Positions 42,526 to 46,326 of a stretch of DNA of 64,000 nucleotides are shown here, one piece after another (position 1 is the stretch's first letter; every line of letters starts with the position of its first letter). Location of the stretch: assembly GCA_949130485.1 (NCBI GenBank), contig OX422196.1, forward strand, positions 985,388-1,049,387, in the 5' to 3' direction. This DNA comes from Agelas oroides. Taxonomy: Eukaryota; Porifera; Demospongiae; Agelasida; Agelasidae. Position numbers and translations under genes: made by a program. Under the pieces are notes generated by a model, which was given only the letters and a program-made list of their open reading frames with translations, made no database searches and was not told the origin of the DNA.

Positions 42526-45500
42526 TCATCTTGATTTGCTACTCAAATGTCCATTTTCCCCTCCAAAAATAGTTTTCTCGTACAGTGACTCATAACCAAG
42601 TTCCTCCTCCTCTCCCTCCCACTCGGTGCTGAAGGTTGGCAGCTGCAGGACACTCGGGTCGTAGCCATGGCACACCAGCAGGTTTATTCTGTCCACCACC
42701 CCTTGCAATATCTTCATTGCTTCTTCTTGTGTCTTCCCAAGCATGCTGACAGAGTTGACCTGCAGGATTCTCATCCCCACTGACAGCCGCCCGTCCTGCT
42801 GTGATGCACCACCAGGAACAATCTGAAACCAACGACAAGCACTCAGAATATGAAATGATCTACACATACCCATATCTACAGCACTGAAACGAATTACGAA
42901 CTTCTTGAGTGGCAAACAAAATGTCTGAAAACCACTGTCTCCATATTAATTGTCAGTGCGTACATACATCATGCATTACACCATCAATCACCAATCTAGC
43001 ATAATAACAGCCTCACTGAAGATCTCCAGCAAACGACACTTCAACTTCTGATATAAAGTTTTCACCACATAAGAGCTCAACAGGCCACTAGCAGTGCTAG
43101 CATGCTCATGCTGAAACTATGGTGGGTGTGGTCTGGGAACATGGGTATGTGACACTATTGTGGGCGAGTGCTGCTAACCATAGTAGAAGTCACCCTAAAA
43201 CCTTTCTTGTAAGGGTCAGGGTCCAGACTAGACTATAGGCGGTAGAGGAATATGTACACACCTGGGAGATGAAGATGCCCTCGTCTGTTTCATCCAGGGG
43301 GTTGCCTGGGTAACCATTGACCCCCCCACTGATGGCAAACCCAAACCCCTCCCCATGTTTGGTGACCAGTGTCAGCTCCTGAGCAGTGTGTGTGTGTGTG
43401 TGTGTGTGTGTACGTGTGTGTGTGTGTGTGTGTGTGTGTGTGTGTGTGTGTGTACGTGTGTGTGTGTGTGTGTGTGTGTGTGTGTGTGTGTGTGTGTGTG
43501 TGTGTGTGTGTGTGTGTGTGTGTTGCATACAAGAGAGATTCACATGTAGATTATTCCCCCCCCCCCCCCCCCCCCCCACACACACACACATGCATACATT
43601 TAGTCCATGTGGTGGAGGTTCATGTCTGACCAGCAAAGTGAGGGGATCTGGGCTAGTTGTGAGAAGTCGGATGGCTTGTTCGTGTGTCACATTACTCGCA
43701 TCAATATCATTCACCTGTGTGTGTGTGAAAACATTTATACAAGCGGTTCAAACGCTAATGAGATGGCCTCCACTCACACTGAGGATGCGATCCCCAGGCC
43801 TCAGTTTACCCACCCTAGCAGCAACACCGTCCGGAGTCACCTGGACATGACAACACAGGAGACAAAGTCACTTGGCTTGCTAAGCCCATGTGTACACGTT
43901 TTGTATTAAAAACAAAAAAAACACACATACAACCAGGTGAGTACTGAGTGTAAGCTACTTCAGCTGACCTTCAGGATGAAGATGCCAGGTTTGTCTCCCT
44001 GCCTAAAGATGTGCATGGGTCTGTCAGAGCCACCCATGATCCGCAGACCGAGGATTCTGTTCTCACGATAGATCTTTACAACCTGTGTGTGTGTGTGTGT
44101 GTGTGTGTGTGTGTGTGTGTGTGTGTGTGTGTGCATGTGTAGGAGAGAGTTAATTGCCACAGCGTGTATACTCCACTGTGAATACCCCTCTGCTTTGTAG
44201 ACCCATATATGTACCAAGTGTTCCAACACAATGGAATACTCATGAGAGAAACAGAGACTAAATGACAGTGTACTTTGTTCCTACCATCAACACACTGTGT
44301 ACCAATATGTACGCTAACAGAAACAAGAGGAAGGCTACCCAACAACTAACATACCCATACAATCTTCGTCCAAGAGTCTGGTCACGAGGTCTAGACTACT
44401 AGAAGCCCAACAGCTGCTGATCCCATTTATGTAGTGGTGCATTAACAACAACTTGCCCACTCTCCCACAGAGTGGCAGTTTGATGGACAAAAATGGACCA
44501 AAACATGATGTGTGCAGGTGGGGTATGGGGGATTGTTATGACTACAGTGAACAACAAACTCAACTTTGTGGGGAAAAAAACTGTCTTCAATGCAATCATC
44601 CTTGACCTTCGCTTTCTACAGGAAGCTGTGGTTCACTGATTATTCATGCACACTAGTTTTACCCACTCGCCCACCCTCAGAGTAGGAGAAAGACAACAAC
44701 TTTTCATTCCTAGAACCTCCCTCAATACACCAGGTTCAAAGCTATCCTTTCTCTGTCACTCGCAAGATACCCTCCTCTTCTTCCTCCCCTCCCACTCTCT
44801 CTCACCTCCACGGCCATGGATGCAGGTCTGGGCTTGATGCTGCTGCTACAGCTGGTAGATCTGCCCTGCTTCAACAGCTTTCTCCTCATTGTGGTCCGTA
44901 GGTTCGACACATGAGACTCCAGAGCATCGATTAGCTATATAGAAAGGAAGTGAGGAGGGAGGAAGAGAGAGGAGTGAGGGAGGAGAGATGAAGGCAGGTA
45001 TGAGGAGTGAAAATCTCATGGGAAATCTCTGTTTACCTGTTGAAGACAGTCAGGGTCCTCCTTGATGAAGGGCTCGTGGTCAACTATGTGCAGCAGGTAG
45101 TCCCTGGACATGCTTGCAAATCGGACATGTTTGAACACAATCGGTGCATGCTCTTTTCTTTTTTCAGGGTCGTGCTGCAACCAGCCCAACACTGCCTCAT
45201 ACACTTGCTCTTCTGATGTAATAGCCAGGTCTTCTAGCTGTACAAGTTTTGCAACAATGTCTGGCTGCTCAAGGTTCAGAAACTCCCTCCCTCTCACAAT
45301 ATCAAGAAAGTTGCACTCAATGTACTTGACAGACGCCTCCATTAGTTCCGTGCAATTGTGGCCCTCTGCAAACAGCCAAGTTCTAATGCAGTTGGACTTG
45401 TTTATCTGCTGCTTGAAAAATTTGAAGCAGGCACTCTTGACTCCAGGAAACTGAAGAAGATCGGCTGCCTCAAAAAGCGAGTAAATGTTGCGGTCGGTGA

Positions 45501-46326
45501 GTTTTATCCGAGAAGTGTACGCAAAATCAACCAATGCAATCAAAGCATCTTCATTGACTTCATCGATTGCAATAGACTCTCCCTCAGGCTCTGCAAACTC
45601 ACCAATGAACATGGATTCAAAATACTGGCTGCAAGCAGCTAGGACAACTTTGTGGGCTTTGATCTCTGTCGAGTCAACCACAAATGTGACATCACAGAGA
45701 TCTCCACGTTCACGCATTTGGTCCATGTACTCGAATGCGTTTCTAGGGTGTTCTCTCTCAACATGTTCCATTTCTCTCGGTGGAGGTGTGGCAAACGTAA
45801 CTGGTTGTTGTGGCTTATGGTGGGTAAGGGGTACAAAGTCCTGTGGACTGCTTGCCGTTGATGAAGAACCAGAGTTTGTGCTAAAACTAGGGGCGGAATT
45901 GGATGGCATGCACACCAGGTAGTCACTGGGTTTTTGGGGAGGAACTCGAGATGGTTGGACTGACTGTTGCGATTTGTATGATGCAACTTCTTCAGAAACC
46001 ATGGCGAGTTTTGTGGGGGGAATGGGGAGTGGTTTGCCAGCTTTGGGCGAGCCGGTTGCTGGTCTTGCAGTGCTCACGGAGAAGGGCCGCGCCAGGGCAG
46101 CGCCGGCAGCAGCGGAGGCCACTGATGAACCATTACCACTTGTACTGAGCTGGCGATGCTTCGTTGGAGTGGTAAACAGGCCGTTGTTAGGGCGATCGGA
46201 CGTGGTCGAATCCACTCGGGCGGGTGCGGAGGTCAATCTCTGCAGAATTGCTTTCGGTTTGGGAGGCACTGGAGGCCTAGGTGATGTCTCCAAGAGCGGT
46301 AGATAGCCGTCGTACGAAGAGGACAT
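42526..46326 (-). CDS. BTB-BACK protein fused to two Scribble-like PDZ domains
   Basis: Six exons, all phase 0 where checked: 46326-45037, 44934-44806, 44082-43969, about 43843-43780, about 43714-43603 and 43387-42526 (itself split by one intron near 43261-42824). They give about 710 residues. Residues 1-190 are Ser/Pro-rich and disordered, with PPVPPKPK. A BTB domain follows at about 200-310 (GDLCDVTFVVDSTEIKAHK, VLAACSQYFESMF), then BACK (SNCIRTWLFAEGHNCTELM, EEQVYEAVLGWLQHDPEKR). The BACK tail runs over the splice (DCLQQ/LIDALESHV), which supports one protein. PDZ-1: VVKIYRENRILGLRIMGG to LTLLVRHEPPP. PDZ-2: ELTLVTKHGEGFGFAISGG, GNPLDETDEGIFISQ, GMRILQVNSVSMLGKTQEEA. Both recall Scribble PDZ3/PDZ4. 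There are no Kelch repeats. It plausibly acts as a CUL3 adaptor that picks PDZ ligands at cortical complexes; that is inference. Confidence 0.86.
43386..43522. repeat. (TG)n microsatellite between PDZ exons
   Basis: Interrupted by two TACG steps. It is (CA)n on the sense strand and ends about 7 bases before the acceptor of the exon at 43387. Confidence 0.97.
43556..43590. repeat. C run plus (CA)n directly after a donor site
   Basis: About 21 C followed by (CA)n on the plus strand. On the sense strand this is (TG)n then a G run, about 10 bases into the intron whose other end is the (CA)n at 43386-43522. Confidence 0.93.

Follow-up and report, generated by a model that had tools for sequence, protein, structure and literature searches.

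The 64,000-nucleotide stretch of DNA analysed here (the window; C14:985388-1049387 of a sponge genome of 259 Mb in 141 contigs) carries on its minus strand, from position 46326 to position 42526, a gene of seven exons that encodes 708 amino acids, as re-derived from the sequence. All exon lengths are multiples of three, every junction is in phase 0, the six introns are all GT-AG, and the single stop lies at the end of the frame; upstream, an in-frame stop begins 24 bases before the ATG of exon 1. Exon 1 (46326-45037) comprises 430 codons and encodes a proline-rich head followed by a BTB and a BACK domain. Across intron 1 (44935..45036), exon 2 (44934-44806) supplies the end of BACK (LIDALESHV), a linker and the residues AVE, the last three before exon 3, which align with Scribble. 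Exons 3 (44082-43969), 4 (43840-43778) and 5 (43714-43598) each encode part of a first PDZ domain resembling Scribble PDZ3 (43598..44082, including introns 3 and 4), and exons 6 (43378-43262) and 7 (42822-42526) encode a second one resembling Scribble PDZ4 (42526..43378, including intron 6), with exon 7 also holding a C-terminal tail of the protein's own and the stop. The re-derivation bears out a sequence-only reading that had described a 430-codon exon ending at CAG/GTAAAC in phase 0 and a fused frame without internal stops, and it returned the identical junction, 45037/44934. The same reading had reported no second start; this was not strictly correct, as exon 2 holds two ATG codons that are in frame and precede the PDZ part. 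The window contains no N, which rules out a mis-join across an assembly gap.

On the same strand, about 170 bases after the stop of this gene, starts a UBR1/2-like gene (window 42356 and below), presumably a UBR1/2 N-recognin; within it, a zf-UBR fragment at window 40753-41154 was detected under the curated cut-off (E 1.2e-4). As this gene adjoins the fusion gene in the same orientation, two ubiquitin-related genes stand in tandem. A NIF-domain exon (window 49045-49461; E 5.9e-13), which lies upstream of the fusion gene and is encoded on the other strand, presumably belongs to TIMM50. Elsewhere on the plus strand of the window are a frame of 810 residues with an RVT_1 match (21969-24401; E 9.8e-28), probably a non-LTR retroelement, and a p31comet-like frame (7846-8856; E 4e-13). 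A low-complexity repeat of about 2 kb (24445-26613) gives rise to spurious frames of 620-720 amino acids on both strands.

A Pfam search of the 708-residue protein (E up to 0.001) identified BTB at residues 201-307 (45406..45726, minus strand; whole-protein E 2.9e-29), BACK at residues 313-415 (45082..45390, minus strand; E 1.5e-25) and two stretches of the PDZ family (E 2.4e-30). At this threshold, the search returned neither Kelch nor LRR nor RING, in agreement with the earlier observation that Kelch repeats are absent. The closest solved structure to the BTB-BACK part by sequence is KLHL3 (4hxi, E 4.2e-56). For the PDZ pair, the best solved match is human Scribble 4wyt, with an E of 2.4e-51 across 197 residues; we take this structure to be the PDZ3-PDZ4 tandem, and the match and the exon boundaries shared with Scribble (see below) support the resemblance to PDZ3 and PDZ4 proposed in the sequence-only reading. 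The domain scores and the exon match to Scribble also rule out chance open frames or repeats as the source of the gene. A single-sequence fold of exon 1 reached a pLDDT of 45, and a model based on the fusion exon aligned to eight paralogues from the sponge was used instead. In this model, the pLDDT is above 90 over most of residues 181-430 and below 50 for nearly all of residues 1-170. The proline-rich head (residues 1-190; 45757..46326, minus strand), which contains the PxxP stretches PPVPPKPK and KPLPIPPTK, is thus predicted to be disordered. The top Foldseek hits for the modelled BTB-BACK were the KLHL11-CUL3 and KBTBD2-CUL3 complexes.

When the BTB-BACK part of the fusion was used as a query, 29 matches were obtained in the same genome, 17 of which, including the fusion gene, cover more than 200 residues; the 12 shorter matches, one of them exon 2 of the fusion, were dropped, and Kelch neighbours were checked for the long ones only. 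All 16 other long matches are followed on the same strand by a Kelch match, 61-2541 bases downstream. For the fusion gene, no downstream Kelch was present among the 150 Kelch places listed, which are the 150 scored out of 1048 candidates and of which 17 entered the distance comparison. The best other BTB-BACK match (C5:2844518) is 43% identical. From these comparisons, we infer that, where BACK ends, the Kelch repeats probably gave way to PDZ3-PDZ4. Six-frame searches miss domains that are split by introns (the PDZ exons of the fusion itself were absent from the 68 matches), so that other odd fusions could be overlooked.

A separate Scribble locus exists in the same genome, on contig C4. With a human query sequence in tblastn, nine colinear LRR pieces were located from C4:4162198 to 4176116 (E 2.7e-12 to 0.57); LRR searches with regular expressions gave nothing useful. 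A PDZ piece lies at C4:4185731-4185853 and PDZ3-PDZ4 at C4:4189339-4190766, with the LRR pieces upstream on the same strand. Judging by their order and strand, these pieces probably form one Scribble gene. Exons 3-7 of the fusion have the same acceptor in front of PDZ3 as this locus and are interrupted by introns at the same four internal positions, all in phase 0. The exon lengths (fusion/Scribble) are 114/111, 63/63, 117/117 and 117/117; the boundaries differ solely where the last exon ends on its 3' side. The shared introns and PDZ3 acceptor indicate that the PDZ pair was copied as DNA together with its introns, and a Scribble retrocopy is ruled out, since all four internal introns were kept. 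The identity of the PDZ pair is 93/192 to the Scribble of its own genome and 95/191 to human Scribble, and the two Scribble sequences are identical to each other at 106 of 192 positions.

Of the two PDZ domains, the first has retained the histidine of class I (H543), with which helix alpha-B starts; the second has lost it, and Q642 occupies this place. At the positions of R1110 and H1170 of human Scribble PDZ4, which were picked in the alignment 60 residues apart, matching their numbering, the second PDZ carries G582 and Q642; the Scribble of the same genome carries K and H. Either R1110G or H1170A alone ablates the binding of an alpha1D-adrenergic receptor peptide to Scribble PDZ4, a domain for which 4WYT was used in that work (PMC6773690). 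The presence of G582 and Q642 suggests that the role of the second PDZ is probably changed or purely structural.

In KLHL3, residues A77, M78 and E85 contact CUL3, and disease substitutions at these positions severely disrupt binding; the phi-x-E motif corresponds to M83-S84-E85, and C164 is near the CUL3 interface (PMC3616122). In the alignment with KLHL3, the fusion has F244-A245-E246 (45589..45597, minus strand) at the phi-x-E motif, M239 at M78 and C325 at C164; neither M239 nor E246 varies across the fusion and the eight sponge paralogues. The A77 position is occupied by S238, which counts against the protein being a CUL3 adaptor; a serine is also found there in the closest paralogue (L037). 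In the region of the 3-box, whose groove for the CUL3 N-terminal extension is described in PMC10564622, the BACK domain is present and C325 is kept. The genome has 25 cullin matches in five loci. A CUL3 gene was located on C7 (six matches within 4455269-4466743, 53-69% identity), and its docking helix keeps F54, Y58, Y62 and L66, the docking-helix residues named in PMC3616122. The kept contact residues and the presence of a CUL3 gene whose docking helix is conserved fit the idea, put forward in the sequence-only reading, that the fusion is a CUL3 adaptor choosing its targets by their C-terminal PDZ ligands.

On balance, and with some reserve, we favour the reading that the protein is a CUL3 substrate adaptor in which the KLHL-type Kelch propeller has been swapped for Scribble PDZ3-PDZ4. 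BTB homodimers would carry two CUL3-RBX1 arms; the first PDZ would bind class I C-terminal peptides of the kind bound by Scribble PDZ3, and the second one would serve mainly as a structural partner or have a changed specificity. The bound membrane or junction proteins would then be ubiquitinated, and SH3 proteins may be recruited by the proline-rich head. The protein would be a competitor of Scribble for its partners, whose binding it would turn into ubiquitination. Considering only the Scribble origin of the PDZ pair, we infer that it may act at polarity complexes. BTB-BACK proteins need not all act with CUL3, and a different possibility is that the protein is a bivalent scaffold or a Scribble decoy, with the BTB dimer presenting four PDZ domains and CUL3 uninvolved. 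PDZ proteins are commonly scaffolds, the proline-rich head would suit one, and the change at the residue equivalent to KLHL3 A77 would be in keeping with this role. However, the equivalents of M78, the phi-x-E motif and C164 are kept, two of these residues (M239 and E246) do not vary among the eight paralogues, and the same genome offers a CUL3 gene whose docking helix is conserved; we therefore consider a scaffold or decoy unlikely, although it deserves serious attention.

The alignment with KLHL3 extends to residue 438, eight residues beyond the junction (430/431), and the L..DA...H residues of exon 2 are in register with KLHL tails. A plain BACK-tail profile failed to single out exon 2; as it was not decisive, acceptors were ranked instead. 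Every AG within 3 kb downstream (n=201) was scored for BACK-tail continuation with a matrix made from the KLHL3 tail and those of seven KLHL paralogues of the sponge, omitting L046, whose tail is off-motif, and L043-L045, which have no usable tail. Acceptor 44934 ranked first of the 201 with a score of 6.72 (runner-up, -4.2), far below the scores of the paralogue tails in the matrix (23.4-34.4). Scores as high as this were found at one other of the 9,883 AG in the window and at one of 9,765 in seven other loci of the same genome, and this background rate, applied to 201 candidates, gives a chance of about 2% for such an acceptor score. As a sequence criterion, the ranking supports the join of exon 1 to exon 2 without settling it. 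The earlier proposal that exon 2 continues the BACK tail is thus upheld by the first place of 44934, but not by the profile alone, and the BACK homology across the junction is modest when taken by itself.

A further explanation is that the gene model has wrongly joined a BTB-BACK gene to an adjacent gene consisting of a PDZ fragment derived from Scribble. Were intron 1 retained, the first frame would stop six codons later (VNRDFP), and the in-frame ATG codons of exon 2 would make a PDZ-only product possible; the indecisive profile and the mere three residues that exon 2 lends to the alignment with Scribble also agree with this explanation. We nevertheless regard it as very unlikely, in view of the phase 0 junction, the length of intron 1 (102 bases), the rank of acceptor 44934 and the KLHL register of L..DA...H. 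Seven of the eight paralogue frames continue past the junction position without an intron, and the eighth, L045, stops earlier. None of eight poly(A)-type hexamers was found in intron 1, and introns 2, 3 and 4 contain one weak variant each. In the region 3' of the stop, the only poly(A)-type hexamers are two TATAAA variants; since the true 3' end itself offers only TATAAA, the lack of hexamers in intron 1 is weak evidence for joining.

The divergence between the fusion and the Scribble of its own genome indicates how the copy has evolved. Over 192 aligned codons, they differ at 76, 63 and 138 first, second and third positions, respectively, and 38 of 50 fourfold sites differ. The synonymous saturation together with the conservation of codon positions 1 and 2 indicates an old copy under protein constraint. 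That the PDZ part is a functionless leftover of a decaying Scribble duplicate, as could be thought because the second PDZ no longer has either the class I histidine or the R1110-like residue, is extremely improbable, given that the first and second codon positions are conserved despite this saturation and that 278 codons run without a stop (probability ~1.3e-7 at this base composition). Judging from its sequence, the gene is a real fusion, old and constrained, that unites a KLHL-type BTB-BACK with PDZ3-PDZ4 of Scribble.

In a four-sequence tree, the fusion was placed outside sponge and human Scribble (bootstrap 90). A sponge-specific origin was not rejected (AU p 0.17), whereas the pairing of the fusion with human Scribble was (AU 0.036); fast evolution of the copied PDZ pair would yield the same picture. 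PDZ3-PDZ4 may have been captured by a KLHL-type gene before the split between sponges and other animals, turning Scribble partners into CUL3 substrates, with the ligase later lost in other lineages; we regard this scenario as rather doubtful. If true, it would represent an ancient animal CUL3-PDZ ligase that tunes polarity.

Comparison with known systems shows partial similarities to four families. Like the KLHL proteins, the fusion has a BTB-BACK with a phi-x-E motif (KLHL3 being the closest by sequence and KLHL11 by fold), and BTB and most or all of BACK are read in a single unbroken frame, which also holds for the eight sponge paralogues; it differs from them in having no Kelch, a Scribble-type PDZ tandem as the substrate module, and a proline-rich head of 190 residues. 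With Scribble (LAP) it shares the PDZ3-PDZ4 tandem and its internal exon boundaries, but it lacks LRR and PDZ1-2, its second PDZ is without the class I histidine, and it has a short tail of its own. As in LNX/PDZRN, a ubiquitin-ligase unit would be N-terminal to target-choosing PDZ domains; however, LNX has its own RING, whereas the fusion has none and its link would be via CUL3, and its PDZ domains derive from Scribble. BTBD1/2/3/6 (BTB-BACK-PHR) also combine BTB-BACK with a non-Kelch C-terminal module, which is PHR and not PDZ (PMC1257465). By their defining features, as read in the sequence, the fusion is outside KLHL, LAP and LNX, and by analogy it likely works as a CUL3-based counterpart of LNX.

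No description of a BTB-BACK-PDZ architecture was found in the available text of the open-licence PMC literature; orthologues that are not yet catalogued may well exist. BTB-BACK-Kelch and BTB-BACK-PHR are named in a survey that covers the BTB proteins of 17 eukaryotes, with PDZ absent from the available main text (PMC1257465). The RING-PDZ combination is reported as unique to LNX, with an LNX1/2 relative in the sponge Amphimedon (PMC3162930). Scribble is present in all sponge classes, and the available text of that study does not mention BTB (PMC5968619). In the portions available, BTB and PDZ appear only in separate passages of PMC3499355, PDZ is absent from PMC10146909, on KLHL evolution, and BTB from PMC9729800, on early-animal polarity. 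Scans with short patterns from the PDZ half gave 53 matches in GTDB genome contigs and 5 in IMG/VR, none of them confirmed in either collection, both of which possibly exclude the genome studied here; a microbial or viral relative was thus not confirmed in these scans. The fusion gene was seen in one genome only.

CUL3 adaptors choose their targets via a small number of modules, among them Kelch, MATH and PHR. A natural CUL3 adaptor bearing PDZ domains would add C-terminal peptide recognition to this set, and the fusion would exemplify an exon-by-exon swap of the substrate module between two known genes. In an early-branching animal, it would also create a direct link between ubiquitination and the ligands of a polarity protein, and it could serve as a natural template for PDZ-directed degraders.

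Contig C141 of the same genome (22.4 kb) is mitochondrial-like. It has TGA codons inside cox1, a frame similar to atp9, which we take to be that gene, and, over the 20 kb analysed, 22 tRNA genes. Sponges, and most likely demosponges, are indicated by a mitochondrial atp9, the use of TGA for tryptophan and a nearly complete set of tRNA genes. The cox1 gene of this contig is in two pieces (L034 and L035) about 1.2 kb apart, and much of the gap is filled by a frame of 397 amino acids, perhaps an intron-encoded protein. A second match to the cox1 family (L033; C107:16176-16808, on a contig of 16.8 kb) has no internal TGA and perhaps comes from an associated microbe.
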